Shown here: positions 2,264 to 23,294 of the stretch, one piece after another | Numbering within the stretch: the first letter of the stretch is position 1 | Layout of the letters: each line of letters starts with the position of its first letter | Source of the DNA: a virus | Length of the DNA: 64,000 bases | IMG/VR virus record: IMGVR_UViG_3300018080_000180 | Span: 1-64,000 of that record | Strand: one strand, 5' to 3' | Position numbers and translations under genes: made by a program | The notes under the pieces: model-generated | Told to the model about the DNA's origin: nothing | Databases searched by the model: none | What the model saw: the letters and a program-made list of their open reading frames with translations, nothing else

Positions 2264-3102
2264 GACTTCGGTTTCGGAACTTTGTCGTCTTCGACGTCAC
2301 GAAAGATCTTGCCGTAATCGATGATCTTGATATTTACCAGACCATCGTAGCCGTGCTTGTCCTGCAGCCACATACGCCAGCATTCAGGGTCCACGCTTTT
2401 TTCGGTAAGCAGCCCTGCCAGCTTCTCGACGTCCTCGCTCAGGATCAGGCCATAGTGGCGCTGGTATGCGTCGTTGAGCTGCTTCTTGTCGTGGCCGGGT
2501 ACTTCGATGTACCGGGGACCGGGGCCTTGCTCACGAGGCGCGGGAGGATCCTGACGGCGCTGTTGTGCCGGCGGATGATCGTTGCCCATCTCCATGGTAT
2601 CGATCTCGGAGTCGATCTGCCCGGAGAACGGGATGCAGAACACCTGATTCAGGACGTACTTGTAGGCCGAGGTCATGGCCTTGTTGTACGCCTTGTCACT
2701 GGTGTCGTTCCCTGATCCGGTCACCTTGGCTTCGAGGAAGGTGCCGTCGGGACCATAGAAGGTGTAGGTAATCACGAGCTTGACAAACATCATCTTGCCG
2801 CCGTTCGCCCGTGGCTCGGTCCAGTGCTCCTCCTCCTCAACCGTCGGAACGATCAGGACTTGGTGCTTGGCCAGCAGCGGATTCAGGCTGTCGCAGACAT
2901 CGTCGATCGATCGGTAGCTGTAATTCTGATCCTTGTTCTTGTGGCTCTTTTCCACGGGACCGATCTCTCCAAGGATGGAGAGGATTCGCTCCTGAATCGT
3001 TGGCGGCACACGCTTTGCGACGGTCGCCTTCGGTTCGGCCGGCTTACGGCTGCGGGTGGTCTTCGACGCAGCCGCTTCTGTGGTTTCTTTCTTCTTGGTC
3101 AT
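2260..3102 (-). CDS. erf: ERF-family single-strand annealing protein
   Basis: 280 residues. After a basic Lys/Ala-rich leader (1-40), residues about 40-185 show ERF hallmarks: 'NYSYRSIDDVCDSLNPLLAK', 'FVKLVITYTFYGPDGTFLEA', and the helix 'NDTSDKAYNKAMTSAYKYVL'. A Pro/Gln/Arg-rich linker follows, then a C-terminal domain typical of the variable region. ERF proteins anneal complementary ssDNA in phage recombination and genome circularisation. The RecB-like nuclease directly upstream would supply the ssDNA, and SSB and the NinB-like protein follow. Confidence 0.85.
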   Translation of the reverse strand: MTKKKETTEAAASKTTRSRKPAEPKATVAKRVPPTIQERILSILGEIGPVEKSHKNKDQNYSYRSIDDVCDSLNPLLAKHQVLIVPTVEEEEHWTEPRANGGKMMFVKLVITYTFYGPDGTFLEAKVTGSGNDTSDKAYNKAMTSAYKYVLNQVFCIPFSGQIDSEIDTMEMGNDHPPAQQRRQDPPAPREQGPGPRYIEVPGHDKKQLNDAYQRHYGLILSEDVEKLAGLLTEKSVDPECWRMWLQDKHGYDGLVNIKIIDYGKIFRDVEDDKVPKPKS

Positions 3103-3133
3103 GCCTGTCTACTTTCCTTTTCTACGTTCGGGA

Positions 3134-4084
3134 TTAAAGGTTTTTCCCGAAGGGGCAAAATTGTTTCGCATCGCAATAGTCTTCGCAGCGGGTGTTCCTT
3201 CCGGGGCGCTGCTCGACCGAGTGGCCCCTCCCGAGCTCCAGCGCGAGAGCCGTTGCGTCTGCTTCGTCGTTGAACACGCGAACAGCCGTCTTCCTTCCTT
3301 CCTTATTGACGGCGTAGGTTGTAGGTTTCGCCCACCGCTCTTCCGGGGTGCAGAACGGAAGCTCTTCGTCCGCGAGCTTACAGGCATTGAAGTGGACCCG
3401 GGAACGCGCAACAAGATATTCCTCGGTCGCTTCTTGCGTCCAGAGAGGAACCTTGATGCACTGCTGTGATGCTGGAGGGTAGTTCGTGTTGCCGGCCTTG
3501 CTCTTCTGAAAATCACGATAAAAAGTATTGATCTTCAGAGCATTCACCGGGAAGCCGAGCAGTCGAAACGCAAACGCATAGCAGTTCAGCTGACGTTCCC
3601 ACTCGGGCTTGGATCCACCGTCACTGTAAACGATGCTCCAGACCGAGGTGACCTTGTGGTCCTCGACAACACCGTCGACCCCGTCATAACAGTCGGACTT
3701 GCCGGACACGTAATAACTGTTGGGGTCGTAGTTCTCGGTCTCCCAGAACTTTACGTTGCCGTCGACAGTGTAGAGCCGCTGCTTGACAAGGTCATAGAAC
3801 CAGCGCTCTTCGCTGAGGCGCTCGGCGTTCGGGTTACCTTTAGCTGCAAGGCGCTCGACCGTGTTGTGGGCTGCGCTTCCAATGAACAGCCACGTAAACT
3901 CGGTGGCATCCTTAGCAATCTTGTCCCGGTGGCGATCGACGAGGATCTTGGGACGGGGGGCGTCGATAAGCTGTGTTACCGACAGGACGTTGTCTGGTGC
4001 TTTGACCAGATCATACTCTTCGACATACGCCTTGATGGCATCCACCACTGTGGGCGACAGGTTAAAATTGTTGGTGATTATCAT
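3134..4084 (-). CDS. RecB/Cas4-like PD-(D/E)XK exonuclease
   Basis: 316 residues. The nuclease core is visible as 'SGKSDCYDGVDGVVEDHKV' (Asp then Glu-Asp-His-Lys) and 'ERQLNCYAFAFRLLG', a QxxxY-like motif. The C-terminus has three clustered cysteines (RCEDYCDAKQFCPFG), like the iron-sulfur C-terminus of AddB/Cas4-type nucleases. By family it resects duplex ends to make ssDNA, so it is the natural partner of the ERF annealing protein encoded just downstream. It overlaps the ribbon-helix-helix gene by four bases. Confidence 0.75.
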   Translation of the reverse strand: MIITNNFNLSPTVVDAIKAYVEEYDLVKAPDNVLSVTQLIDAPRPKILVDRHRDKIAKDATEFTWLFIGSAAHNTVERLAAKGNPNAERLSEERWFYDLVKQRLYTVDGNVKFWETENYDPNSYYVSGKSDCYDGVDGVVEDHKVTSVWSIVYSDGGSKPEWERQLNCYAFAFRLLGFPVNALKINTFYRDFQKSKAGNTNYPPASQQCIKVPLWTQEATEEYLVARSRVHFNACKLADEELPFCTPEERWAKPTTYAVNKEGRKTAVRVFNDEADATALALELGRGHSVEQRPGRNTRCEDYCDAKQFCPFGKNL

Positions 4085-4791: not shown

Positions 4792-7281
4792 TTATCCGTA
4801 GATCCGGGTGTAAAGTTCCTGCCCTAGCTGCCGGCGGTACTTCTTCAAGATCTTCTTGCCGACAACCGCCTGCTTGGGAGTCAGGCTCAGCTGGTGCGCA
4901 AGACTGTTGCCTATACGTGTATCGCAGCCGTTGTAGCCCACATCGTTGCGGAAGCTGGCATGATCACTGTCGAACCCGGAGATGTACTTCAGGCCCTCAT
5001 GGATTGCCTCTACGTCCGCCTTGGTGAGGCCCACGGCCTCCAGCGTGATCTGCTTCCGGGTCAGGTTGTTGGTGGTCGGCTGAGCGCCCGGGGTGACCGG
5101 CTCGGGCTCGACGACTTCGTCCAGCGCCCTGTCGATGACGGCCTGCTTGTTAACGATCGTCTTGGCAATCGTGCAGTCGAGGCTCTCCTCCAGCACAAGG
5201 TGATAGATATTGACGCTATCCTTCTGGCCGATGCGGTGGCAGCGGTCCTCTGCCTGCGTGACATTCCCGGGAACCCAGTCGAGCTCCGTGAAGATGACCG
5301 TGGAGGCTGCGGTGAGCGTGAGGCCTACGCCGGCAGCCGTGATGGATCCGATGAAGACCTTGACCGCAGGATCCCTCTGGAAGCGATCCACGGCGTCCTG
5401 CCGGTCAGCTTGCGCCGTCTGCCCAGTCAGGACTACCGCAGAATCGCCAAAGGCCTGCTTGAGGCCTTTTACGACGTCATGGTGATGAGCGAACACCACC
5501 ACCTTGTCGATGCTCTCCAGCTGCTCTTTGATGAAGTCGATGCACTGCGGGATCTTCTGGACCGCCGTGTCGTGCCGCAGCCTTGCGATCTCGGTGAAGG
5601 CTGCCGTGGCTGCGTGCCGCAGGAGCCTCACAGCGTCCTTGTATTCGCTTTCGTTGTCGGATGCCTTGGCCAGCTCCACATTGGCCTTGAGCTCCTCCAG
5701 CCGCGCTTCGTTGCGCTTCGAGGCCTCAATCTCGGCCCTGACCGCCCGGGCTCCCTCGCCATCGGCCGACAGCTCGATGACCGTCCGACGCTTTGCCGGG
5801 AGCTCCTTGAGCACGTCCTTCTTGAGACGACGGCAGAGGATGCTCTCGCGCAGCTTGTCCTGCAATTCTGTAAGGTTGCTGGCTTCGCTGAAGTCCCAGC
5901 CATAGCGGTTCTGATGAGCGTTGCAGTAGCGCTTCGCGTAAGCAAAAAAGTTGCTGAACAGGTCAGCCTTGAGGCTGCTCGCAAGAGTCCAGAGCTCAAG
6001 CGGCCGGTTGACGATCGGCGTCCCGGTGAGATACAGCCTCCGACTGGCCCGGATGCCCGGGAAGTGGAAGTTGCTGCGCTTGGTGGACCCAACTACCAGC
6101 TGGGTGCGCTTGGCCTTGCTGTTCTTCAGATAATGAGCCTCGTCAACACAAAGAATTGACCAGACACCCGACTCAGATACATTTCTCCAACTAATGAGTA
6201 TATCGTAATTAATTATCAAAACAAAAACAGGAGAACCACCATGGCCAGACCCGCAAGAGTAAGTGACACGCAACTCAGAAAACACTTTCAGCTTTTCAAA
6301 AAGGGACTGCGCGTACCTGAGGTTGCCAAGATGCTTGGCATCAGGGGAAGCACCTTGAGGTATCACTACTTCAGAATCACGGGCAACAGACTGCGGCTTT
6401 TTAGGCGCCACCAGCCCGCGTTTGCTACCCCGAAGAGTGCCACCACTCTTGCCTACATGGCGGGATTTATCGACGGCGACGGGTGGATTACCATTACCAA
6501 AACTGCCGCCCAAATTGGAATTTCCAGCGTTGACAAATCGGTCGTTGATTTCTTTCTGAAATATGGGGGACTCTATAGTAGCCGACCGGGAAACAGCAGT
6601 GGAACAATCAAAGGGGCTCGAACCCAACACATGTGGAGAATAAGCAGAACCTTGGACGTCCTGAACGCCCTCATAGCCATTCGGCCCTACCTCGTTATTA
6701 AAAAGAGAAAGGCCGCTGAAACAATCCAGTACTGCAGGAGAAGGCTTTCCAGATGCAACAGCAGCAACTAATGGGCGAGTGCTCCACTTGTCCAGCTCGC
6801 GTGCCCAGTTGATCTTCAGGGACGCCGGACAAACCACGAGGACTGTTTTGATCGACTTGTCGAGGTTGATAATTCCGCAGACCTGTATGGTCTTCCCGAG
6901 CCCGGGCTCGTCACCGAGGAGGGTCGAGGGCCGCTGGCTGATGTACTTGATTCCGGCCAGCTGGTAAGGAAGGTAGCTGAGGCCTTCTGGGGATGGGACA
7001 ACGAAGTCGGCGCTGACCGAACGGCTGGCTTCGAGAGCCGCCTGTCGCTCCTCTTCAAGCGCCCTGAGCTCTTCCTGCAGCTCGGGGAGACAGTAGGGCA
7101 GGAGCTTGGCCGCCGTCTTAGGCTCCTTCGTGTACCAGACTCTCGCCTGTGGGTTCCACCAGAAGCCTGCCCCCTTCACGACATCCTTTTCGGAATAGTC
7201 GCTGCGAGCGACGAACACCTCCTGCTCGCTCTTGATGTACTTGGTCCAACCCTTCTGAACCGTTTCTCTGTATACCACCAT
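4792..7281 (-). CDS. SNF2/SMARCAL1-type helicase with a large in-frame insertion
   Basis: 829 residues. Residues 1-60 are a small ssDNA- or branch-binding module ('FWWNPQARVWYTKEP'). Helicase motifs follow: Walker A GDEPGLGKT (123-131), DEAH (about 380), 'LYLTGTPIVNRPLELW' (motif III), and motif VI 'QAEDRCHRIGQ' (about 682). This arrangement is that of SNF2 annealing or fork-remodelling helicases. Residues about 183-345, between 'AAVASGKPSP' and 'VFVLIINYDIL', are Ser/Gly-rich, have no counterpart in helicases, and are the antisense translation of a LAGLIDADG endonuclease gene. Whether the insert is spliced out or tolerated in the protein cannot be told. Promoter B lies just upstream. Confidence 0.85.
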   Translation of the reverse strand: MVVYRETVQKGWTKYIKSEQEVFVARSDYSEKDVVKGAGFWWNPQARVWYTKEPKTAAKLLPYCLPELQEELRALEEERQAALEASRSVSADFVVPSPEGLSYLPYQLAGIKYISQRPSTLLGDEPGLGKTIQVCGIINLDKSIKTVLVVCPASLKINWARELDKWSTRPLVAAVASGKPSPAVLDCFSGLSLFNNEVGPNGYEGVQDVQGSAYSPHVLGSSPFDCSTAVSRSATIESPIFQKEINDRFVNAGNSNLGGSFGNGNPPVAVDKSRHVGKSGGTLRGSKRGLVAPKKPQSVARDSEVVIPQGASPDAKHLGNLRYAQSLFEKLKVFSELRVTYSCGSGHGGSPVFVLIINYDILISWRNVSESGVWSILCVDEAHYLKNSKAKRTQLVVGSTKRSNFHFPGIRASRRLYLTGTPIVNRPLELWTLASSLKADLFSNFFAYAKRYCNAHQNRYGWDFSEASNLTELQDKLRESILCRRLKKDVLKELPAKRRTVIELSADGEGARAVRAEIEASKRNEARLEELKANVELAKASDNESEYKDAVRLLRHAATAAFTEIARLRHDTAVQKIPQCIDFIKEQLESIDKVVVFAHHHDVVKGLKQAFGDSAVVLTGQTAQADRQDAVDRFQRDPAVKVFIGSITAAGVGLTLTAASTVIFTELDWVPGNVTQAEDRCHRIGQKDSVNIYHLVLEESLDCTIAKTIVNKQAVIDRALDEVVEPEPVTPGAQPTTNNLTRKQITLEAVGLTKADVEAIHEGLKYISGFDSDHASFRNDVGYNGCDTRIGNSLAHQLSLTPKQAVVGKKILKKYRRQLGQELYTRIYG
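6241..6771 (+). CDS. LAGLIDADG homing endonuclease, antisense inside the helicase gene
   Basis: 176 residues on the plus strand, the only convincing plus-strand gene. AGGAG lies seven bases before the ATG. Residues 11-45 form a helix-turn-helix ('GLRVPEVAKMLGIRGSTLRY'). Residues 72-83 carry a single LAGLIDADG motif (MAGFIDGDGWI), so it should act as a homodimer, followed by 'QIGISSVDKSVVDFFLKYGG'. Its codons sit exactly opposite helicase codons, and it uses no TTA, CTA or TCA codon, which would be stops in the helicase frame. The 3' end overlaps conserved helicase sequence. By family it cuts insert-free helicase alleles and spreads by repair. Confidence 0.85.
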   Translation: MARPARVSDTQLRKHFQLFKKGLRVPEVAKMLGIRGSTLRYHYFRITGNRLRLFRRHQPAFATPKSATTLAYMAGFIDGDGWITITKTAAQIGISSVDKSVVDFFLKYGGLYSSRPGNSSGTIKGARTQHMWRISRTLDVLNALIAIRPYLVIKKRKAAETIQYCRRRLSRCNSSN

Positions 7282-10174: not shown

Positions 10175-10497
10175 TACTGCCCTCCCCTGCTCGCAAAGAA
10201 GATGATAACACCAATGACAATCTGGATCACGGTCAACCCAACACCGAGGGCAACGGCAGAAACCTTTACCCCTGCCTTCATCTCGTTCTGGCCAATGGCG
10301 AGGTGGTTAATGTTGGTTGTCTGGGTGTCTACAGCGGCAAATATCTTGCCTATGCTTTCCTTGACTTCCACAACTCCCCCCTTGAGGTTTTCCAATTCTA
10401 CGCTTTTTGCTGCATCGCATTTTCCAAACCTAAGAGCAAGGTCGTTAACCTTTGAACCGAGATTGTTTAAGTCAGACTCTGTTGCGAATTCGGCCAT
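10174..10497 (-). CDS. XhlA-like holin-associated membrane protein
   Basis: 107 residues from the ATG at 10497 (a GTG one codon earlier is possible). Residues 1-75 are a predicted coiled coil ('LNNLGSKVNDLALRFG'). Residues about 80-103 form one transmembrane helix ('VSAVALGVGLTVIQIVIGVI'), followed by a short basic tail. That layout matches XhlA-type haemolysin/holin partners. It overlaps the giant gene by one base and the endolysin start by one base (TAATG), forming a lysis pair. Confidence 0.6.
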   Translation of the reverse strand: MAEFATESDLNNLGSKVNDLALRFGKCDAAKSVELENLKGGVVEVKESIGKIFAAVDTQTTNINHLAIGQNEMKAGVKVSAVALGVGLTVIQIVIGVIIFFASRGGQ

Positions 10498-13400
10498 CAC
10501 TGTCCTCTCTTCGATTTAATAACAGCTTCACGGTGCTTCTTCCATAACTTCTTGTACAGCTCCCACTCTTCGTCAACCTTGACAATGCTTGGATGCTTGC
10601 TCCAGTTGGCCTTTTCTTGCGGCGTGAGGTTCTTGTACGCCGCCTCCCTGCGTCTGGCAAACTGGTTCTGCATGCCTCCAGAGTACAGTGCATTGTACCC
10701 AAACTTCAGCTTGCTTGCCGGCAGCTCCTTGGGTTTCTCCAGCAGTCTACCGGAGAAATACTCATTGATCTGTTTGACGTTCTCCGAGGGGTCGTCTATA
10801 CCAGCATTGAACGCCTCGGCCTTGAACGCTTTGCGCCGGTCCTTCGGCAGCTGCTCGTACCAGTTTTTGAAGATGAGGCGCTCGCGCCAGCTTCCGGGCT
10901 TCTTCAGCCGGCTGGTCATGGCACCCTTGAGTGACACGTCTTCCAGAGTCGACTTCGGATACAGGAGGTTTGCCATCCCCTCTCCCTTGGCAGCCCTGAA
11001 GGCCCCCTCGACGGCCCGGATAGCCATGGATGCCGGCAGCCTCGTTGCGATGGCACTTACCTGCGCCCCGGCCTTAAGCGCCTTCTGGGCGGCTTTCCGG
11101 CGCTCTGTGGGCGTCTGAGCCTGAGCAAGATCGGCTACACCACCCATGAACCTGCCGGCGGTTCCGAACACCTCGAAGGCCGTGGGGGTCACGTCGAACC
11201 CGTAGTCCCTGATAGGCTTCTGGCCCCGCATCTCTCGGATCCGGTTGCGAGCGTTGGCCATCATGGAGTTAATGCCCTCGCCAACCACCGGGAGGGTTCC
11301 GGTAACGCCGTTGACGGCGTACATCATCAGCCCCTCTGGGTCCTGCAGCAGGCGCTTTGGGTTGTACCATGCGCCAGTGTCGATCGCGTAGATCCACATC
11401 GCTGCGGCCATCTGGGCGAAGAACATCTTCACAGCCATCTTCATCACCTCGTCGGGGGGCGCCGATGCCGACTTGGCCGCCATCCCGATCATGGCCCACA
11501 TATTCGCGTTCTGGTTGATCTGGTTCTTGAATGCAGTGAAGGCACCAACGACCCCTCGATCGCGGAAGGCTTCTGGCAGATTCACCAGCGAGCTCTCAGG
11601 CTGTGTCCTGCGGATGAGCATGTCAGCCTCGCGCACTGCCCGGGACTGGTTGCCGTGCTTCTTCATACCGTCATCGAACTTGGCCAGCCATATCGACACG
11701 ACGGCGGCCTCGTCGAACGCCCGTATCCCCGCCATGGAAGCATCCGCCAGCTGGGTCATCGCGGGACCGAAGCCAAACGCCTTCTTGACTTCCCGGGATT
11801 CCTGCAACTCCCTGAGCGTCCGCTCCACGTTTCCGTTGCGGGTCTTCATGTATTCGCTCAGCCCGTAGACCATCTTCTGCATGTTCTTCCAGCCACCCGT
11901 GGTGTACTGGGCGAACCGCTGGGTCACGAGGCCGGGAGAGACGAAAGGCATCGCGCCCGTCATCGACGCGAGCTGCTTGGCCATGACGCGCACGTTGAGC
12001 CCGAGGGCATACACGCCGTAGTTCCGGCGAATAAAGTCAGCCCATGTGTTGAGGGCATTACTGTTGATATTGGATGGGCGACCAGCAATCATATCCTGAT
12101 GCCAGCGCCACATCGTCTTGTACGCTGCCTCGCTCCGAGTCTGGATCGCCCGGGAGACAGGGTCGTAATCGAGAATGCGCCGTGTTGTGTTGATCGTTTC
12201 CTCGAAGGCAATGTAGTGCTCGACGTCCCTCATGTGGGCAAAGACAGTCCGAAAGAAGTCGTAGTCCCGGAACGCAGCCTCGCTCTTCACACGACCCTTG
12301 GTGAACTTACGATCGAGGCCGATCGGCCGAGTGGAGTAGCGCTGCATCAGATCGATCATCACAGGGCTCTCGGCACGCTTGCGATCGAGACGCATGATCG
12401 GGAAGTACCGATCGGACTTCGGCATCTCGACTCCGTATACCTTTTTAAAGACCTCGTTCACCCGGGGGTAAACGTCGGTGTCGTAGAAGTCAATGAGCCG
12501 GTCGACCGCATCCTTCACCTCCTGAGGGAGGGCGTCGGTGATGGTCTGGACAGCATCATCGGTGTAACCACTTCCATACAGGTGGCGCAGGTTGTCCTCA
12601 TTCTGCGAGTTTGCATAAACGAACATGGCCTGATTCGCGCTCAGCTTCCGCTGGTACGGGATCCCGGTATCCATGTCATACACTGTCACCTCGAAGTCAT
12701 CGAACTTCTGGTACATCCGGCGCAAATCCAGACCTTTGAAGATCTCGGCAACCTTGTCCTGATGTGCCTTGGCAGCGATGCTCTCCTCGATGGCCTTCTG
12801 GCGGATTGGTTCATACACGAACCGGGACAGCGCTCCGGGTTTCTGTCCGAGCATCTGGAAATTCCCGGTCGCCCATTCCATAAGCAACTCAGGACGAACC
12901 TGCTGCCAGCCAAAGAAGCGGCCGATCTCTCCGAGCGACTTCATCAGGCCCCGGGTCTCATCGTCGAATGCCCGGGCAGCCCTGCGCTCGATGGCCGCCT
13001 GCGAGGTCACCTTACGGACCCCGGCAACCACCGCCTGACGCTTGGCGTTAACCTGTTTCATCTCACGATCGACCTGACGCTTGCGCTCGCTACGGCCAGT
13101 AGTGTAAATCAGGCGCATCTCTTCACTCACACGACGCAGCTGGGCGGCCGACATCTGGTCAAGGCGAGGAGAGGTGTTCTGAATAACGAAGGCCTTCTCC
13201 TCCGGAGTCAGCTCGACATCCTCAGGGCCGTTGATCTTGTCGTAGATCCGAACAAACTCAGCTTCGGCCTCAGTGATCGGATTACCCTGTGCGACCTGCG
13301 ACTTAATCTGGTCGAGATTCAGGCGCGGCCGAGTATCATCGAATGCATCCATGAGAGCTTCGAGCTCAGCTGCGGCCTCCGGGGTAAACACCGATGACTT

Positions 13401-16400
13401 GCGCTTTCCGGCTTTCACTGCATCGATCATGCTGCGATACCGCTTGATCCGATCCTTTGCCTTTTTGTAAAGCATGCGCCTGAGGTTGTTCTGCACGCGC
13501 TGGTCAATCAGGTCCAGCACCTTGTTGAACATATATGGCGTCTTTACCCTTTTAATAAGGGGGTAGATATCCCGAGGGTAACCCACCTGTCGCGCATAAA
13601 GAGAAAGGGTCCGTGCGATATCCTCGCGCAGCTCAGCTTTTTTCTCGGCGAGCTCAGCCTTGGTCATCTCCCGAAAAGCAATAAGGTATTTATCGATCGC
13701 CATGGCTGACCCGGCACGCATTCGCAGCGTTTCCTCGTCCTGCAGGGCACGCAGCCGTGTCCGGGCTTCCTGTAGGTACTCGTATTCCTCTTTAATACGA
13801 TACTTCGAAGCAACCAGATCCGCAGGGCGCACCGGGATCCGCTTAACGACAGCGGAGAGTCCACGGCGCTTCTTCGAGAACGTAAGGCCTGCACCCTTCA
13901 CTGCCTCGGCTACAGCGTCCTCTCGATTACCGGCGGCTGTACTATACTCAATGAACGGCACTCCGGCATTTCTAAGAATCCGGTCAACCATCGGAAAGCG
14001 ATTATCAGGAACAATAGCGAGCTTCGCTTCCCCGATCATTACAGGGCGCGACATCTTTACTTCAAAGTAGTGCTTCGGCATCTCCCGAATGAGGTTGGCC
14101 ATGTCAACGATGTGTTCAACCAGATTGTCAGGAAGCCCCTGAAACCCGATCTCCTGCGCTATCCTGCGGACATCCTCATTACCACGACCGTTTTCGTCAT
14201 AGTATCGCGCAACAAGTCCATGCAGCGTGGCCGAAGACTTCTGGGCATACGGCTCGATATCGGTCATCAGCTTGCTATGAAGCAGCGACGCAAGTCCTAC
14301 CCCGGTATATGGCTCCCGCTCCATGCCACCGGCCTCATACCTGCTAATGACGCTCTTCCAGTCACTAAGGCGTTCGCGGGATCTCCCGGTAAGATACCCA
14401 TATTTTTGCTCTATCCCCTCCATCTCAGCAGATCGCGGATCCTGCCGGGACATTGCTTCGTGGTGGGCCTGCAGTGTGGCCGGAACCGTCTCTCCGCGAA
14501 GAACCATTTCGCCAACACCATACAGCTCGTCAGCGAGCATCCCAAGCCAGTCACGGTATTCGCCATAGCGACCGTTCATTAAATAATGCAGCTTCCCGCT
14601 GGCCCTTTCGTTTGTTTCGCTTATAAAGAGAGACTGTAATCCAACATCCCCCATGGCAAAATCAAAAAAGAGATCCCGATCCTCTTCTTTCATTATTTCA
14701 GCAGAATCGCGAGAGATTATTCCATCATCTGCAGGAAAAAATTTCTTGACCGCCTCTTCGATTTTTCGGGCAGTCGCTCTGGCAACCTGTCTGTTCGGCC
14801 TGTAAGCAACATCCATAATGCGCCGTGCCGTGTAGGCATCTCCGTTGTAAACGAAGTCGATAGACGGCTGAACGGTTTCCTGCGGAAATACCAAAGAAAT
14901 CCCGCCGAACTCCTTCAGCGGACTCTTGGTTGAAGCAATTGCGATAGACACCGCCGGAATCCCGCCGATCGAGTTGATGCGTTCGAGGCTTTCCTCGGCA
15001 AGGTTGTGAACAATGTAAAGGTCTTTCTGCTTTGACCCGGGCAGCTTCTTTTTCGAAAGCGTCTCCCGTGTCGGGCGCCCGAGCAACGTCTCGTCATAGA
15101 CGGCGTAGTTGGTGGTAGCTGGACCATCAGATTCGAATGCGCCGGCAATTCCAACACCAGCCAGAGCGTCAGATGCGGCGATATTGGATTCGAGGATCCG
15201 GGCAACAGTGCGATAAATATCACCACCAGTAACGAAGCCGCCGAGCTGTGCCTTGGTTGCCGAGATAATGCTATCATAGGCCTCGGGATCAGGAACCGCC
15301 TGCCGGCCAAGATCGATCATCTCCTGAGATTCGGGGTTGTTCCAGTCAAGAAAGTTCCCGTTCTCAATGGCCAACTCAGCGGTGTACAGATACGAGGTGC
15401 TCTGGACCTGCACACGGTTCTCTTTGATGAGATCTACCAGCTCTTTTAGCTGCTCTTTACGGAAGGGGTGATCACCCGGGTAGGTCATACCCTTCGCCAT
15501 CTCATCGATTTCCTCGCCACGCCGCCACGCTCGAACCATGTTGGCAACCCCGATGCTGTCAAACATCGGCCAACGTCGATTCATCCCGTCAACGGTGAAT
15601 CTATAGCCACCGAGCTCCTGAGCGTACCATACAGCATTGCCACGGACGTCAGTAACATAGGTGGCCGCACCCATGGCAGAGATCCCCGAGGCGCGTCCAG
15701 CGTTGTTGCGATAGTCGAAGTCGTCGTACTGGGATCCAGACCCGTGATAAACCTTCTTGCTGAAAGCAAGAACCGGATCGTTGCGGTCAGCTTCAGTGAT
15801 TTTCGACTCGTACCATGTATTACCCTGCTCATCAGTAACAGGAGTAACATCTGAGCGAAGCCTCCTGAAAGCTTTCAATGCACCTGACTTATAATTACGA
15901 AGTACCTCTTGCGCAGACTTGTGGATCTTTGTTAAATCATAACCACCCCCTATCGGGGTGTCGCCAGTACGAAACCTTACATGAAAGGTCTGAATTGGAA
16001 ACGGCTCATTTTCCGAGACCCCCATAATGTACCTTGCGTTGTTTACAAAGTCAGCCACCTGCTTTTTCTTTTGATCTGAAAGCTGCCTGTATTTATCCGC
16101 AAACCTTGAACTGGTTGTCCACACAAGGAAGTGCTGGTCACCCTCATCTATTCCACTTTTGTCAACAGACAGGATAAGGTCGCGCCTGCCACTCCTCCTG
16201 TGCTCAAGAGTTGCCCCGGGCTTCGCCTTTTTCAGGATCTCATCGCTGCTTTGATCTGAGCCACCTATTGCAAAAAGTTCATGCTGCGCACGAACGTCTG
16301 CTTCTTTTTTTACGAACCCCTCGACAAGAGCCAACGTCTCCTCGGTTGGCATCCGAATCGTCTCGTACCCACGCACCGCAGCCACCTTGATCGCCTCGCG

Positions 16401-19400
16401 CACCATGCGCTGGGGCCAGAGCTTGTGATAGGCTTCCGTTTGAGTGCGGAGGATAGACGGAAACGTCTTGAACCTTTTCGGGACCATCTGGTACAGCTGT
16501 TGAACAACACCATATTTATAATTCAGATCGGCGGGGGCTGATTCTGTGGCAGCCTGATACAGGCCGGCGTGCATTATTTCTTTGTACCAGTCGGTTTTAT
16601 AAAAATCATGAAAGTGTCCGGTATGTGGACGAAAGTCAAGAGAGTCCAAAACACGACGAGCGGTCTCTTTTTCGTTTAATCCAATCATGTCGTCTTCTGA
16701 CATCGACCCTACTTCAGCGTCGATTGCATCGATAATCTTTTGTGGCTCCCCCTCGCCGACAGGCTTTTCTTCGCGTTCCTCTTCGGACCAGTCAACAAAC
16801 TCATTAATGGCTTCAACATCATAATGCTGAAACAGATCTGACTGGATCTCCATAATGTTGAATGCATTGCCGATTGGAGCAACCCGCAGGTGGCCAAACA
16901 GACCGACCCTGTCGCTGGTGTCTTCTGCGGCGGCTTCCGCCTCATCGATCCACGTATACGCCGCCTCCTTGGACCCAAAGACGCCAAGAACCTTCTCCTT
17001 GTTCTTTTTGTCAACAACCGCATAACTCGGAGGCGCCCAATCCTGAACCTTGAACCCTTCTACTATTTCATACTCAGGAAAAAGCTCTTTTGACAGCTCC
17101 ATGTACTGGTCTGTCCAATGTCCAGCCTGCCCATGATAATACGGAGCATTGAAAATGATCGACTCGCCTTTCGCCAAGCCGGAGTACCCAAGCTCGGGGA
17201 CGCCATACTTTACTTCGTACTCTCCACCAGTGGAACTGATGCGAGTAAGCGGGATAAGCTCGGTATTTACCTCGCGCTTCAGCTGTTCAAGATCGATTTT
17301 CTTCTCACCCTTGTGATACTTGTCAAGCACAAAGCTGACGACATCGGCCTCGATCGGTTTCACTTCCTTGCTTTTCAGCAGACTGTCCATCTGACCACGA
17401 CTGACCATATCCTTGCCAACAAGCTCCCGACGCAAGAATACAGAGGTGGTAAGGAACGGCTTGGTGTCCTCTACCACAACCTTTTTCGAAAGTGTTGCTA
17501 TTTTTCCGGCTCTTCGGTCTGCGTCATATCGCTGGCGGATTGCTTCTGCTTGAGGGCCGTATCGATTAACGATGGACTCAGTGAGTCTGCCGAGGACTTT
17601 TTCATTGTACTGATCGTCGCCCCTTCCCGATATATCGGGGCGTCCTTCGGATACGAGCCGTGAAATGTAGCTGGAGCCATCTGGGTTCTCCTTCCAGTCA
17701 TTGTCGAAATATCCGCCGTCACTGTTGAACCTCCACGTATCAACCTTCTCAACCGGATACGCATTGTCGATCACAGGAGCGATCGCCCTGTGGAAGTCAG
17801 CATTCGACAGTTCTCCGAACGTAAAGTTTATGATCCGGGCGCCGGATGAGTGCCCGATAATTCCAATGCTGTTAGCGTACTTCGGCATGGCAGCCATGAC
17901 CGAGTGCTGCAATGCCAGTGACTGCTCTTCATCGAACGGTCTGCCGGTCAGAACCTCGATGCCGTTGTTATTGGCAGCATCGACGCCCCCGTAGATCGGG
18001 TAGTGGTATGCCACGGCGTCCTGCTTATAGATATAGCCGAATGCGTTTGCAGCTGCATCGAGCTTCGCGGCGACGGCCTTGTCGATCTGCTTAGATCCCT
18101 CGGTAACACCGAGGAGTGCGAGCGCCTGCTGTGATGGATTGCTCGCCAACTCCCATGCGCCGGCCGTGGTGAACTGGGTTGCCAGTGGAAGCTCCAGCAT
18201 GTCGAAGATCGCGTTGGTTCCCCGTGGAGTCTGGACCATCTGCATGAGGTCGCGATGAAGTCGCGCCTTGTCCTCATAAGCCATCTTGGTCATCCATGCG
18301 TACTCGCCGCTGGTTGTCGGGATGGTCTCGTAGGAGAAAAACGACAGGCGCTCGCCGATACGCCGTGCAAAGTCGTCAAGCTCAAGCGTATTGGGATCAG
18401 GAAACTCCATTCGCTCGTGCATACGCTTTAAGATTTTGATCCACGAATCATTATCGTAGTCAATCTCCACACCATTGCGCACTATCTTGGTAAGCTCGCC
18501 CGGAGCAAAGCTGCGAATAACATCGTTGTACTTGTCATTCCACGCCTGCCGGAACGAGCACCAGATCGATGCCTGTAGCTGGTCGTTCGAAAGGTTGAGA
18601 CGCTTCGCCAGCATTCGCATCTCTTTCTGGAGACGGCGCTGAAGCGTGGCGCTTTGAGAGCGCTGCGGAGTAACACCGAACGCTCGATAAATCCATGTGT
18701 CCATGACGGCATCGTAGTCGCCCGGGAAGTCGCTTGACAGGTAGCTGATGAGAGTCTGGTCAAACGGGGTTACCTTGGGTCCGGTAGCCACCTCGGCAGC
18801 CGACGCGCCACGAATCAGCTGCTTGACCTTGTTGCTAACACTGCGATTCTTGCCAAACATTCTGCCAGCCAAAGCTCGCTCGAAATCCTGAACATCCATG
18901 GCGCTGGTCTCGCCAAGAAACTCGATAACATCAAAAACGTAGTCAGTGTTTTTTGCCACTGAAGTCTGGGGGCTGGTGACAGCTGCCACGTTCATGTACA
19001 GCTCTGCCTTGACGGGATCGCCGCCGGCAAGGTACATGGCAGCACGGCTGCTGGAACGATACCAGTTCTTGAAATCCTTCCCCGCCTCGGCATAGCCGGC
19101 AAGATCCTGCACGAGCTTACGCATCTGGCTTGGGTTCCCGATAATCACCCCGGCGCTTTCGAAAATTTCTTGCTCGCGGGTAGCCTTACGAGGTTTTGAC
19201 AGTGTGGGTTTCTGCTTGGCTATCTTGGCAACTCTTTCGGCGATACCCGGGCGCTGCTTCGACATGGCTTCGAGGATCTGCCGACGCAGCTCGATCGCGC
19301 CCTTGGGGTCGAGGTAGCGGGAGTGTTCCTTCGGTGCTTTCTTTACTGCAGCAATGATATCACCGACCATCCGCAGGATCTTCCTGAGGACCTTCGGGGC

Positions 19401-22400
19401 CTTGTCAGCAAGAGTATAGAAGACGCCCCGGGCGGTCCCGATGTCTCCGGAGATATCGGCCAGCAGCTCAGCAATCACGTAGCTTGACACAGGATAACCC
19501 TTATAGGTCGTCATATCTGGGTCGTTCACCCTCAGTTCGGCGAGGTCCTCTGCCCCATAGTTCGCAAGACGTTCAAGCAAGTACTCGCGGTAACCCGCAG
19601 CATCCATTGCCTCAAACAGGGAGAAGAGGAGGTTGTTATAGTCTGACTTGGAATCGTGCTGGATCCGGTGCAGCCCTTCGTGCAGGAACGTGGTAAGGAG
19701 GGGGAGATCCCCCTCGGTGTTGAGCAGCACCACCCCGGGCATGTCCTCCGGGGCGTAGCCGTTGATATCGAGGCCTCCACGCCCATCCTTGAACCACAGG
19801 ATCGTGGTCCCCATGTCAGTCGCAAGAGCCTCAATAGCCTTCTGGTACGCTGTTTCTGACTTTGCGGGGACGGCGCCTGCCTGAGCGTATCTGCCGCCGA
19901 ACTTGCGGAGGCCGGTGACTGCTTTATCAAGCAGCCTGACCTTCTTATCCTGATCTGTAACTACAGAAGGCGCCTTTTTTGGCGGAGCTTTCTCTTCTGT
20001 TAATCGTCGCTGTCCTGCTTCAGTGGCTTTTCCAGCTTCGCCATCTCTTTTCTGTACTGCAGGCCGTTGATCTCGCCGTTTCGATAGCGTTTTATCAGGT
20101 TGAACTCTTTTAGGGAATTCCCGCTCAGCCTCAGCTTGACTTTTTGCTGGTTCACGTTTTTCCTCCAGTTCTCGCGCCGACACAAGGCCGGCTTGTTCAT
20201 AAATGGGTCCGAGGTCTTCTCCTTCAACCCCACTTATATTATACCGTTCCGCCAATTGATTGTCAATGTAAATCGCATTGCGTCGTTTCGACTTGCCTTC
20301 CAGCATGGCTTGATCTGCACCAGCAAGATCGGCCCCGACCCCTATGGTTGCCCCGAGCGGAACCCGCATAACGGTGCCGTTTTTAGCCGTTATCGGAACA
20401 GTTATCGAATTGAGTTTCTGTTGCATTTGCTGCAGCTTTGCGGGAAGTTCGGCCATCTCTTCGTCTGTCAGTTCAGCAATGCCGGCACCTTCATCGCCAT
20501 GGATGTGGTAATAATTAATCCCGACCTCTTCTGCAGCCTCAGCAAGAGCCCTCTGCCCCTTCTTCATGATGTAGTCGCCAGCATTATGGCCTTCAATGGT
20601 CTCGTCATTCCACGGCTTGAATTTATCAAGGTCATAAAAAATGTTTACACGAGTTTTGCCTTCTTCGACAGGTTTCTGCATTGCGCTCTGAAAGTGGGGG
20701 CCGCTCTTGAGCTTGGTAAGCCCATGCCGTTTCGATCTTGATGCGTAGCGAAGTGCCTTGTCACGAGGGAGCTCTGGATCCTCCTCTTGAAGCTCATCTG
20801 CAACAGACTCCAGAGTTTCTGGCTGAACCTCTGCTCCGATGTCCTCCATTATCTTGACTCTGCCCTGAGCCTTCCCGGGCGTAATCGGAGGCGGCTCAAA
20901 ACTCTTTGGGGCTATCTCAAAAATCTCCTCGTCGATAACTTCCAAAGACTCTATTCCGGACTCCGCTGTCGGAAGCTGCCCTTGCTTCTCCGTTGGCTGA
21001 ACCGGCGCCTCAGTGGGCGCTCGCGGCTCCTCAGCGGCAGCTTCCGATGGCGTAGCGGGTTTGGACAGTGTAGGGGGCTTGCGGCCCTCCTCGGCCTCCT
21101 GAGCGGCCAGAGCCTCGATCTGGGCTACGGTCTCGGGATCGTCCGATACAACCTCCTCAATGGTCAGATCTGGGCCTACAGGGGCAGCTGGCGCCTCTCC
21201 GGGTGCTGTGGGGGCCTCTCCGGGCGCTGTGGGGGCTACAGGGGTAGCTTCTTGCCTCAGACGCTCCTGCTCGGCCCTCTCGGTGGCTGCCTCGCGCTGA
21301 GCGGCCTCTATATCAATAGTCTGCGCTGCATCGCTCATTACGGCCTTCTGGGCACTCTCCTGAGCCTTGTCGAGCACCCCGAGTCCCTTCAGCGTCTTGT
21401 GGACGACCTTTACGCCGGCAGCTTTGGCCTGATCAGAGATCTTCTCGACGCCTGCCCGGACGCCAGCTCCGCCCATACCAAGCAGGAACATAGATGGGAA
21501 GGCTGTCGCGTAGGCGGCGGCTCCCTCAACCATGGCATTCTTCAGCTCTTCGAGAATCTTGATCTTCTTGCCCTCTGACATTTTGCCAAGGACCGGAGCG
21601 ATCGTCCCGGTGAGCCACTCCTGAAACATCTCCTCACGGGCTTCGTGGTGGGCACCTTCTGCACGCTTGGCCAGACCTGCAATGGATCCTGATACAAACC
21701 GAGCGAACCGTCCGGTACCAATGCTTTTGCCCATAGCTGTCCGGATTGCGTTCAGGGTCTCCTTACTGAAGACACCCTTGTTCTGCATGTCCTCAACTTT
21801 GGCGTATCCAATACCAATCGGCAGCGCAAAAACTCGCTGCATATCCCTGCTGACACCAGCCTCCTCTAAGGCCCGAGCAGTGCTGCCTGCGCCTTCGAGT
21901 GTCCACATCAGGCCGCCGGCCCCGGGAACCACCATGTTCAGGGCGGTACCTGCCGCCATCCCGGGGAGGATCCGGATGGTAGACGAGATAATATTCTTGT
22001 ACTGATCCTGATCTGTCGCCTCTGTAATCTCGTCGGTCAGAGCCATCGCCTCATCGTAGGCCTCATCATCAAGAGAATAGAGCGCAAGGCCAGTGGAAAT
22101 GCTGGCCGACAAGTCTGCAACCCCAGCCAGAAAAGAAGCAGTGGGGGTACTGAAAAACCCGGGCTTGACATTTTGTAGGTAATCCACAAAGTCTTCGGCC
22201 TCTGCCTTGCGCAGCCATCCCGGAGACAGCTCCTCCATAACATCTTCGGCGTATTTGACGTAGTCCTTTGCCGCTTCCAGCTCCTGTTTCACCTGAGTGT
22301 CGCGTCCTGTTTCGCGGGCGATCGCTTCGCGTCCGGGCTCCAGCTCCTGAAGGGCTGCCTCCCGAGCCTTGAACGCACGATCCCAGCGACCTGCCGCAGC

Positions 22401-23294
22401 GGTCAATCCAGTGACATGCTTTGCAACCGTCTTGCCGACCTCACCAAGAAACCCTTCGCGCCCCTCGATCGGTGTGACCCCAGCCTCTGGCATTTCCAAC
22501 CGTCGGTCTGCTGGGGGAGCCTGTTGCATAACGTCGACAGCCGGGGCCTCCACTGCTTCGGTTGGAGTGTACTCTTCTTCCCTCAAAAGAGCCTTACGCT
22601 CATCCTGAAGCATGCGAATCTGCTCTCGCTTCTGCTCGTCAGTTAACTCAACGGGCGCCTCCCCCGCCTCTCCTGTGATAAGCTCCTTTTCAGTGCGGGA
22701 AAGCTCCTGCTGCCTCTTGCTCCACATCTCGCGTGTCTGCTCGTAGGACTTGCGAACATCAAGACCTTTTGGCTTCGGCTCAAGCGATTTGCGTATCTCT
22801 TTGATCTGCTCTTCGATCTCGGCAAGGCGCTGCTTCTTTGATTTCTCCTCGGCACGGCGCCCACGTTCAGCCTGCAAGGACTGGCGAATAAATCCCTCTG
22901 GCTTCTCCTCGGACTCGCGCTTCAAATAACCAGTAAACCCAAGAATATTTTCGGCTATGCCGGCCATTGGACCTATGACAGGAACACCCCTTAAAAGAGC
23001 TCCGCCAAAACCAGCACCAGCCTCGCGGCGCTCACCCGGGCTTCCTTCCACCGTAGGAGGGGTAACTATCTCGGCCTCGGGATCCTGCATCGTCCTGCCA
23101 CCGGGAGGGGCGGCTGGCTGTGGTGTCGGCTCAGGTTCTGGCTGCTGCTGGGCTGCTCTCGCATCGTCGGAGAGGACTTCGTCGAGCGACAGGCCTATGT
23201 CTTCCGACGGCGGGGTATAGGAAGCCCGTGCCTCGTCGGAAAGAAATTCGTCAATATTCAGGTCGAGGTTTTGGTAGCTGCTGCGTGGGGCCAT
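10497..23294 (-). CDS. Giant 4265-aa polyvalent virion protein
   Basis: AAGG precedes the ATG. Visible modules: a disordered N-terminus with two DE[FV]LSD[ED]ARA motifs (to 60); hydrophobic segments (about 380-620); a GGDEF-like domain (850-1020; DLDKF, HGDEG instead of GGDEF); a zinc peptidase motif HEGLH (about 1208); a domain with 'TSPQTSVAKNT' (about 1445); a large-polyvalent-protein domain with 'NIMEIQSDLFQHYD' (about 2150); an ADP-ribosyltransferase-like domain from 'VYHGSGSQ' to 'NYAVYDE' (2515-2730); a domain starting 'DLYIVHNLAEESL'; coiled coils (3140-3500); and a helical C-terminus. [T/A][L/F]SK occurs seven times at domain borders. Such proteins are thought to be packaged and ejected with the DNA to counter host defences. 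Position after the internal virion genes supports that. Confidence 0.85.
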   Translation of the reverse strand: MAPRSSYQNLDLNIDEFLSDEARASYTPPSEDIGLSLDEVLSDDARAAQQQPEPEPTPQPAAPPGGRTMQDPEAEIVTPPTVEGSPGERREAGAGFGGALLRGVPVIGPMAGIAENILGFTGYLKRESEEKPEGFIRQSLQAERGRRAEEKSKKQRLAEIEEQIKEIRKSLEPKPKGLDVRKSYEQTREMWSKRQQELSRTEKELITGEAGEAPVELTDEQKREQIRMLQDERKALLREEEYTPTEAVEAPAVDVMQQAPPADRRLEMPEAGVTPIEGREGFLGEVGKTVAKHVTGLTAAAGRWDRAFKAREAALQELEPGREAIARETGRDTQVKQELEAAKDYVKYAEDVMEELSPGWLRKAEAEDFVDYLQNVKPGFFSTPTASFLAGVADLSASISTGLALYSLDDEAYDEAMALTDEITEATDQDQYKNIISSTIRILPGMAAGTALNMVVPGAGGLMWTLEGAGSTARALEEAGVSRDMQRVFALPIGIGYAKVEDMQNKGVFSKETLNAIRTAMGKSIGTGRFARFVSGSIAGLAKRAEGAHHEAREEMFQEWLTGTIAPVLGKMSEGKKIKILEELKNAMVEGAAAYATAFPSMFLLGMGGAGVRAGVEKISDQAKAAGVKVVHKTLKGLGVLDKAQESAQKAVMSDAAQTIDIEAAQREAATERAEQERLRQEATPVAPTAPGEAPTAPGEAPAAPVGPDLTIEEVVSDDPETVAQIEALAAQEAEEGRKPPTLSKPATPSEAAAEEPRAPTEAPVQPTEKQGQLPTAESGIESLEVIDEEIFEIAPKSFEPPPITPGKAQGRVKIMEDIGAEVQPETLESVADELQEEDPELPRDKALRYASRSKRHGLTKLKSGPHFQSAMQKPVEEGKTRVNIFYDLDKFKPWNDETIEGHNAGDYIMKKGQRALAEAAEEVGINYYHIHGDEGAGIAELTDEEMAELPAKLQQMQQKLNSITVPITAKNGTVMRVPLGATIGVGADLAGADQAMLEGKSKRRNAIYIDNQLAERYNISGVEGEDLGPIYEQAGLVSARELEEKREPAKSQAEAEREFPKRVQPDKTLSKRRDQRPAVQKRDGEAGKATEAGQRRLTEEKAPPKKAPSVVTDQDKKVRLLDKAVTGLRKFGGRYAQAGAVPAKSETAYQKAIEALATDMGTTILWFKDGRGGLDINGYAPEDMPGVVLLNTEGDLPLLTTFLHEGLHRIQHDSKSDYNNLLFSLFEAMDAAGYREYLLERLANYGAEDLAELRVNDPDMTTYKGYPVSSYVIAELLADISGDIGTARGVFYTLADKAPKVLRKILRMVGDIIAAVKKAPKEHSRYLDPKGAIELRRQILEAMSKQRPGIAERVAKIAKQKPTLSKPRKATREQEIFESAGVIIGNPSQMRKLVQDLAGYAEAGKDFKNWYRSSSRAAMYLAGGDPVKAELYMNVAAVTSPQTSVAKNTDYVFDVIEFLGETSAMDVQDFERALAGRMFGKNRSVSNKVKQLIRGASAAEVATGPKVTPFDQTLISYLSSDFPGDYDAVMDTWIYRAFGVTPQRSQSATLQRRLQKEMRMLAKRLNLSNDQLQASIWCSFRQAWNDKYNDVIRSFAPGELTKIVRNGVEIDYDNDSWIKILKRMHERMEFPDPNTLELDDFARRIGERLSFFSYETIPTTSGEYAWMTKMAYEDKARLHRDLMQMVQTPRGTNAIFDMLELPLATQFTTAGAWELASNPSQQALALLGVTEGSKQIDKAVAAKLDAAANAFGYIYKQDAVAYHYPIYGGVDAANNNGIEVLTGRPFDEEQSLALQHSVMAAMPKYANSIGIIGHSSGARIINFTFGELSNADFHRAIAPVIDNAYPVEKVDTWRFNSDGGYFDNDWKENPDGSSYISRLVSEGRPDISGRGDDQYNEKVLGRLTESIVNRYGPQAEAIRQRYDADRRAGKIATLSKKVVVEDTKPFLTTSVFLRRELVGKDMVSRGQMDSLLKSKEVKPIEADVVSFVLDKYHKGEKKIDLEQLKREVNTELIPLTRISSTGGEYEVKYGVPELGYSGLAKGESIIFNAPYYHGQAGHWTDQYMELSKELFPEYEIVEGFKVQDWAPPSYAVVDKKNKEKVLGVFGSKEAAYTWIDEAEAAAEDTSDRVGLFGHLRVAPIGNAFNIMEIQSDLFQHYDVEAINEFVDWSEEEREEKPVGEGEPQKIIDAIDAEVGSMSEDDMIGLNEKETARRVLDSLDFRPHTGHFHDFYKTDWYKEIMHAGLYQAATESAPADLNYKYGVVQQLYQMVPKRFKTFPSILRTQTEAYHKLWPQRMVREAIKVAAVRGYETIRMPTEETLALVEGFVKKEADVRAQHELFAIGGSDQSSDEILKKAKPGATLEHRRSGRRDLILSVDKSGIDEGDQHFLVWTTSSRFADKYRQLSDQKKKQVADFVNNARYIMGVSENEPFPIQTFHVRFRTGDTPIGGGYDLTKIHKSAQEVLRNYKSGALKAFRRLRSDVTPVTDEQGNTWYESKITEADRNDPVLAFSKKVYHGSGSQYDDFDYRNNAGRASGISAMGAATYVTDVRGNAVWYAQELGGYRFTVDGMNRRWPMFDSIGVANMVRAWRRGEEIDEMAKGMTYPGDHPFRKEQLKELVDLIKENRVQVQSTSYLYTAELAIENGNFLDWNNPESQEMIDLGRQAVPDPEAYDSIISATKAQLGGFVTGGDIYRTVARILESNIAASDALAGVGIAGAFESDGPATTNYAVYDETLLGRPTRETLSKKKLPGSKQKDLYIVHNLAEESLERINSIGGIPAVSIAIASTKSPLKEFGGISLVFPQETVQPSIDFVYNGDAYTARRIMDVAYRPNRQVARATARKIEEAVKKFFPADDGIISRDSAEIMKEEDRDLFFDFAMGDVGLQSLFISETNERASGKLHYLMNGRYGEYRDWLGMLADELYGVGEMVLRGETVPATLQAHHEAMSRQDPRSAEMEGIEQKYGYLTGRSRERLSDWKSVISRYEAGGMEREPYTGVGLASLLHSKLMTDIEPYAQKSSATLHGLVARYYDENGRGNEDVRRIAQEIGFQGLPDNLVEHIVDMANLIREMPKHYFEVKMSRPVMIGEAKLAIVPDNRFPMVDRILRNAGVPFIEYSTAAGNREDAVAEAVKGAGLTFSKKRRGLSAVVKRIPVRPADLVASKYRIKEEYEYLQEARTRLRALQDEETLRMRAGSAMAIDKYLIAFREMTKAELAEKKAELREDIARTLSLYARQVGYPRDIYPLIKRVKTPYMFNKVLDLIDQRVQNNLRRMLYKKAKDRIKRYRSMIDAVKAGKRKSSVFTPEAAAELEALMDAFDDTRPRLNLDQIKSQVAQGNPITEAEAEFVRIYDKINGPEDVELTPEEKAFVIQNTSPRLDQMSAAQLRRVSEEMRLIYTTGRSERKRQVDREMKQVNAKRQAVVAGVRKVTSQAAIERRAARAFDDETRGLMKSLGEIGRFFGWQQVRPELLMEWATGNFQMLGQKPGALSRFVYEPIRQKAIEESIAAKAHQDKVAEIFKGLDLRRMYQKFDDFEVTVYDMDTGIPYQRKLSANQAMFVYANSQNEDNLRHLYGSGYTDDAVQTITDALPQEVKDAVDRLIDFYDTDVYPRVNEVFKKVYGVEMPKSDRYFPIMRLDRKRAESPVMIDLMQRYSTRPIGLDRKFTKGRVKSEAAFRDYDFFRTVFAHMRDVEHYIAFEETINTTRRILDYDPVSRAIQTRSEAAYKTMWRWHQDMIAGRPSNINSNALNTWADFIRRNYGVYALGLNVRVMAKQLASMTGAMPFVSPGLVTQRFAQYTTGGWKNMQKMVYGLSEYMKTRNGNVERTLRELQESREVKKAFGFGPAMTQLADASMAGIRAFDEAAVVSIWLAKFDDGMKKHGNQSRAVREADMLIRRTQPESSLVNLPEAFRDRGVVGAFTAFKNQINQNANMWAMIGMAAKSASAPPDEVMKMAVKMFFAQMAAAMWIYAIDTGAWYNPKRLLQDPEGLMMYAVNGVTGTLPVVGEGINSMMANARNRIREMRGQKPIRDYGFDVTPTAFEVFGTAGRFMGGVADLAQAQTPTERRKAAQKALKAGAQVSAIATRLPASMAIRAVEGAFRAAKGEGMANLLYPKSTLEDVSLKGAMTSRLKKPGSWRERLIFKNWYEQLPKDRRKAFKAEAFNAGIDDPSENVKQINEYFSGRLLEKPKELPASKLKFGYNALYSGGMQNQFARRREAAYKNLTPQEKANWSKHPSIVKVDEEWELYKKLWKKHREAVIKSKRGQ
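20000..20155 (-). CDS. Possible overprinted 51-aa gene inside the giant gene
   Basis: In another frame of the giant gene, GTG at 20155 is preceded by GGAGG at six bases. The product (MNQQKVKLRLSGNSLKEF ... QYRKEMAKLEKPLKQDSDD) is basic, helical and normal in composition, while the giant protein in the same stretch is a low-complexity linker. A promoter with the same operator as the early promoters lies about 80 bases upstream. No family is recognised. Evidence is the combination of promoter, ribosome site and codon content; expression is not shown. Confidence 0.5.
   Translation of the reverse strand: MNQQKVKLRLSGNSLKEFNLIKRYRNGEINGLQYRKEMAKLEKPLKQDSDD
20238..20266 (-). promoter_or_regulatory. 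Internal promoter D with the early operator
   Basis: TTGACA (20261-20266) and TATAAT (20238-20243) are 17 bases apart, and the -35 box lies in ATTGACAATCAATTG, identical in layout to promoters A-C. Here it is inside the giant coding region (encoding part of IDNQLAERYNIS). It would drive the overprinted 51-codon frame under early control. Confidence 0.7.

Follow-up and report, generated by a model that had tools for sequence, protein, structure and literature searches.

Mobile genes residing in essential genes are thought to require an intron or an intein in order to avoid harm to the host. Sense-strand, out-of-frame insertions of HNH endonuclease genes that leave the host frame open were published in 2025 for phages ShiLan and Pacc40 (PMC11855218). 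Such hidden HNH insertions sit in phage methylases (PMC11855218), and they are also found in Pacc40 gp60 and in Applejack (PMC12613952). Free-standing homing endonuclease genes (HEGs) are present inside the coding genes nrdA of phage Aeh1 (mobE) and gene 60 of T4 (mobA), and in both cases the host gene is split (PMC2988022). HEGs oriented antisense to their hosts are known in group I introns of nuclear rDNA (PMC9548176).

The locus described here lies in a 64,000-nucleotide stretch of viral DNA, hereafter the window, and is likely an unspliced homing gene inserted antisense in a loop of an SNF2 helicase and transparent to the translation of the host gene. Like the ShiLan-type insertions, it comprises a homing gene without an intron or intein, an open host frame, a patchy distribution and an insert predicted to form a disordered or looping extension; the insert is missing from homologues and no intron or intein splicing elements were recognised in it. 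The ShiLan-type genes encode HNH enzymes, share the strand but not the frame of their hosts and lack a recognisable ribosome-binding site, whereas the window gene encodes a LAGLIDADG enzyme and lies on the opposite strand, codon-aligned and with a Shine-Dalgarno (SD) sequence, in a helicase. Because of the opposite strand and the LAGLIDADG family, we consider the window insert a variant and not a member of the ShiLan type. PMC11855218 nowhere uses the words antisense, opposite or reverse, and an antisense LAGLIDADG gene with an SD inserted in an open host frame was not found in the literature searched. The window gene is, like mobE and mobA, a free-standing HEG inside a coding gene, but the hosts of the latter give two polypeptides whereas the window helicase is one frame. 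It shares its orientation opposite to host transcription with the HEGs of rDNA introns, which, however, are His-Cys genes in self-splicing rRNA introns without a host reading frame. Free-standing LAGLIDADG genes of actinobacteriophages (Karhdo, Estave1, Navo, Sushi23) belong to the same endonuclease family, phrog_5046, but are located between genes, in sense, and as a group do not avoid antisense stops.

The helicase gene (4792-7281, minus strand) is, as a reading of the sequence alone had claimed, one continuous frame of 829 codons encoding 829 aa. It matches the Pfam models SNF2-rel_dom and Helicase_C and phrog_62, and a search of the 64,367-bp virus record revealed no second SNF2 helicase. 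The helicase motifs are intact: the N-terminal part (6743-7281, minus strand; residues 1 to ~180) contains the Walker A motif GDEPGLGKT and continues to ...LVAAVASGKPSP, and the C-terminal part (4792-6227, minus strand; VLIINYD...) contains the DEAH box and Helicase_C. The insertion site is a variable surface loop of the helicase. When the ORF was modelled with the insert by AlphaFold, the core reached pLDDT 85-97 and residues 196-313 stayed below 50; most of the antisense-encoded residues are thus modelled as disordered.

The same sequence-only reading had identified the foreign part of the helicase as the antisense of a plus-strand LAGLIDADG gene with its own ribosome site, which proved correct: a gene of 176 aa (6241-6771, plus strand) is codon-aligned and antisense to the helicase, its ATG being 7 nt downstream of an SD-like AGGAG (6229-6233, plus strand). 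Its 29 Leu and Ser codons include, as had also been stated, no TTA, CTA or TCA. A promoter-like sequence TTGACC-16-TACATT (6156-6183, plus strand) is present 45 nt upstream of the SD; it is weak, with 0.5 such matches expected by chance. The protein contains an HTH (residues 9-47) and a single-motif LAGLIDADG core (67-174; motif YMAGFIDGDGW, 72-82) with the alpha-beta-beta-alpha-beta-beta-alpha arrangement of the family; it is assigned to phrog_5046 with E=1e-12, with Pfam LAGLIDADG models staying under cut-off. Its AlphaFold model (pLDDT 88) has I-CreI, I-CvuI and I-MsoI as best PDB matches (Foldseek E=5e-6), and the fold is accordingly predicted to be of I-CreI type. The core fold and the single motif are common to I-CreI, I-MsoI and the window endonuclease at ~19% identity; the latter differs in its extra N-terminal HTH and in the lack of an intron. 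A search of genome contigs gave no more than weak archaeal matches. In a phmmer search, residues 54-120 matched a PDB chain named VopV (E=3e-12), perhaps through repeats or composition.

The insert (6236-6742, or equivalently 6228-6734 owing to an 8-bp repeat) is 507 bp long, a multiple of three, and corresponds to 169 host-frame codons and not to the 163 that had been claimed for an otherwise correctly recognised foreign stretch. It is not present in the ~100 helicase homologues examined, those of L087/L088 (see below) excepted; in homologues from viral contigs the residues that flank the insert are joined directly, with a variable loop of 2-23 residues between them. No endonuclease-free homologue was found to carry the same insert in sense. 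The endonuclease gene starts 5 nt inside the insert and occupies all of it but ~13 nt, while its last codons and stop (6743-6771, plus strand) are the antisense of host helicase sequence, the stop TAA being opposite the host Leu codon TTA. The direct repeat CAGGAGAA is found at 6228-6235, where it includes the endonuclease SD, and, 507 bp away, at 6735-6742 (both plus strand); the chance of an in-frame 8-mer common to two random border regions is ~0.006. Deletion of one repeat unit in silico gives ...ASGKPSPVFVLIINYD..., equal in length to the corresponding region of, e.g., L007. A target duplication was rejected as the origin of the repeats, since there are none at the L088 inserts, and for the same reason the window repeat may be due to chance or to reuse of the SD. 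The joined empty site was also searched for a palindromic target, and the best candidate (7/11) was unconvincing. No near DNA relative of the window helicase turned up, and its empty site is therefore deduced from homologues of ~50% identity.

The absence of stops from the host frame was evaluated by a simulation in which synonymous codons were resampled with the endonuclease protein and the third-base composition held fixed. The host frame of the window insert contains no stops where 4.5-4.9 are expected (P=0.003-0.005), and in the other four frames the same simulation gives no deviation from expectation. With the codon usage of neighbouring genes as the yardstick, 2.8 stops are expected and the result is borderline (P=0.05), and it is for this reason that a second, independently found case matters. 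Among full-length relatives, the one nearest to the endonuclease (~31% identical), retrieved on sequence irrespective of its context, is encoded by L087 and L088, which are identical, come from two samples and represent a phage distantly related to the window phage. There, too, the gene is antisense, codon-aligned and stop-free, inside a 1010-aa helicase ORF and in the same loop; a clear SD was not found for it. Its host frame has 0 stops versus 6.7 expected (P=0.0005), and the remaining antisense frames are at expectation. The L088 helicase contains a second insert, an HNH gene (2707-3204, minus strand; phrog_3322, E=6e-34) in the ShiLan-like form, i.e., in sense and out of frame; this insert, too, leaves the reading of the helicase uninterrupted, with 0 stops versus 7.5 expected (0/6000 simulations), some non-host frames deviating too. 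Both L088 sites are empty in more than 20 homologues that are 75-90% identical in conserved parts. The published ShiLan HNH gene, used as a control, is likewise depleted of stops in the host frame (P=0.009). The host frame is kept stop-free by selection. Between the window and L088, the antisense residues agree only to the expected degree (identity 0.21 versus 0.20), and therefore it is openness alone that is kept; the possibility that the antisense protein is a functional domain was rejected on the same ground.

The alternative that survives best, though we consider it unlikely, is an inactive or dispensable helicase whose frame has remained open through luck, high GC or the recency of the insertion. 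In high-GC genes it is common for codon-aligned antisense frames to be open (e.g., L083 and L134), and the value obtained with neighbour codon usage for the window alone is borderline. The frame-specific simulation, however, rejects high GC as the sole cause, and the intact helicase motifs, the two independent cases at the same site and the third insert, the HNH gene, all argue against a dead helicase or luck.

It is somewhat less probable still that the insert is spliced out as an RNA intron, of group I or another kind, with its open host frame being incidental. Such HEGs are typically carried by mobile introns, and the sequence-only reading had pointed out that introns and inteins usually carry them in sense; antisense HEGs are nevertheless known in introns, both those of nuclear rDNA (PMC9548176) and, as described below, those of phage capsid genes, including the probable group I intron of L166. 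Against an intron, no Rfam intron was found in the window region at E<=10 or in L088 at the gathering threshold, the latter absence being weak by itself because Rfam gathering also missed the L166 intron. Moreover, the endonuclease fills the insert and so leaves no room for a ribozyme, and the host frame is selectively stop-free; the earlier proposal of an intron that is still readable when unspliced is not supported. A hammerhead-like Rfam match at 6715-6779 (E=1.1) was rejected as chance.

Removal of the insert after translation, by an unusual intein or by proteolysis, is just as improbable. The host frame is translated through the insert in this scenario, and true inteins do occur in homologous helicases (L064 and L012), but the host-frame insert matches none of the intein splicing models and lacks the splicing blocks and the Cys/Ser/Thr at the junctions, whereas such models do recognise the controls L064, L114 and L158; the host-frame sequence is also unconserved between the window and L088. 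Two of these inteins themselves contain LAGLIDADG genes in sense and out of frame, at 2835-3500 of L114, in a glycosyltransferase-like gene, and at 3815-4498 of L158, in a DUF2201 (VWA/metallopeptidase) gene. Both hidden genes leave the intein frame open, and it is this frame that is depleted of stops.

Least probable of all is that stop avoidance serves ribosome transit on the host-strand transcript (polarity/Rho, RNA pairing) and not the helicase protein: antisense HEGs of capsid-gene introns avoid the same codons even though their host exons are joined by splicing, but no helicase splicing was seen, an open frame is required to make the protein at all, and the sense inserts (L088 HNH and ShiLan) keep whichever frame is the host's open. 

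The capsid-gene HEGs are related LAGLIDADG genes that run antisense to a phage capsid-like gene within its introns (L198, L195, L142, L196, L191, L153, L194, L127, L137, L148, L166, L139, L146, L164, L140 and L239-L265), and they avoid TTA, CTA and TCA very strongly. Fifteen such genes use CTA in 1/257, TCA in 2/173 and TTA in 6/92 cases, A-ending codons being common elsewhere, and 20 mostly additional genes have 18 host-strand stops versus ~311 expected, the other antisense frames being undepleted. Most of the residual stops are upstream of an ATG opposite the C-terminal VHKLN motif of the HEG, where the antisense ORF begins. Some 80 other relatives show no such avoidance. The L166 intron matches group I RF00028 with E=9e-6, short of Rfam's own threshold, and is probably a group I intron. 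Preservation of the host frame was rejected for the capsid genes, in which stops are present between exon and HEG and the exon frames differ. Because these intron HEGs avoid stops with no need for an open host frame, the integrity of the host protein may not be the sole cause of stop avoidance, and host-strand translation through antisense HEGs could matter more widely. It is possible, and we propose it tentatively, that selection generally keeps antisense LAGLIDADG genes within transcribed phage genes transparent to translation on the host strand, which would replace splicing in the helicases and maintain a ribosome-read antisense ORF of ~280 codons in the capsid introns.

If the window insert is an unspliced antisense homing gene, the endonuclease would be read from the plus strand with an SD and probably a promoter of its own, and would cut insert-free helicase genes, whereupon repair from the carrier copy would install the gene together with flanking donor helicase DNA. 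An insert that is a multiple of three, with selection against TTA, CTA and TCA, would allow ribosomes to pass through the antisense strand and yield a functional helicase without splicing, with ~169 extra residues that are unconstrained in sequence and mostly disordered. Of the meanings considered in the sequence-only reading, it is thus the tolerated, self-sparing insert that gains support, from the selectively stop-free host frame, the presence of the same arrangement in the corresponding helicase loop of a second phage and the modelled, mostly disordered loop; its description as a new mode has to be qualified, as the sense HNH insertions of ShiLan and Pacc40 were already published (PMC11855218).

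Homing is further suggested by the DNA around the insert. The helicase codons beside it (6132-6227, minus strand) are low in GC3 (10 of the first 30 codons, p=3e-8), as are those on the other side (6743-6774, minus strand; 1/10, p=1e-5), compared to ~0.74-0.78 elsewhere, and the outer edges of these tracts are sharp. The DNA identity of L088 to insert-free relatives is 0.42-0.6 beside both inserts and 0.75-1.0 farther out. Both patterns would be expected if donor flanks were co-converted during homing, and the tract at 6132-6227 is likely donor-derived, a reading based in the window on GC3 because the collections hold no close relatives of the window phage. Patchy distribution and apparently co-converted flanks, the signs of mobility in the ShiLan type, are thus indicated here by sequence comparison.

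The DNA of one gene would in this way be constrained on both strands, with the parasite being a mere extra loop in a host protein. The ShiLan observation of 2025 is thereby extended to antisense insertions and to a second family of endonucleases. Since the longer ORF alone is called, automatic annotation overlooks such genes, but the missing TTA, CTA and TCA provide a measurable signature, and it becomes directly testable how HEGs initially establish themselves in genes before they capture an intron or intein.

Inteins are present at other sites of homologous helicases (~4800-5840 in L012 and ~4900-5560 in L064), and the helicase is therefore a hotspot of mobile elements. Separately, inserts that break the helicase frame were observed in L027 (~5286-5803), L038 (~5204-5788), L045 (~6147-6953) and L032 (~5656-5824), those of L027 and L038 being HNH or AP2-like; these are possibly introns that Rfam fails to recognise. 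The window phage also contains a single ORF of 4265 aa (10497-23294, minus strand).
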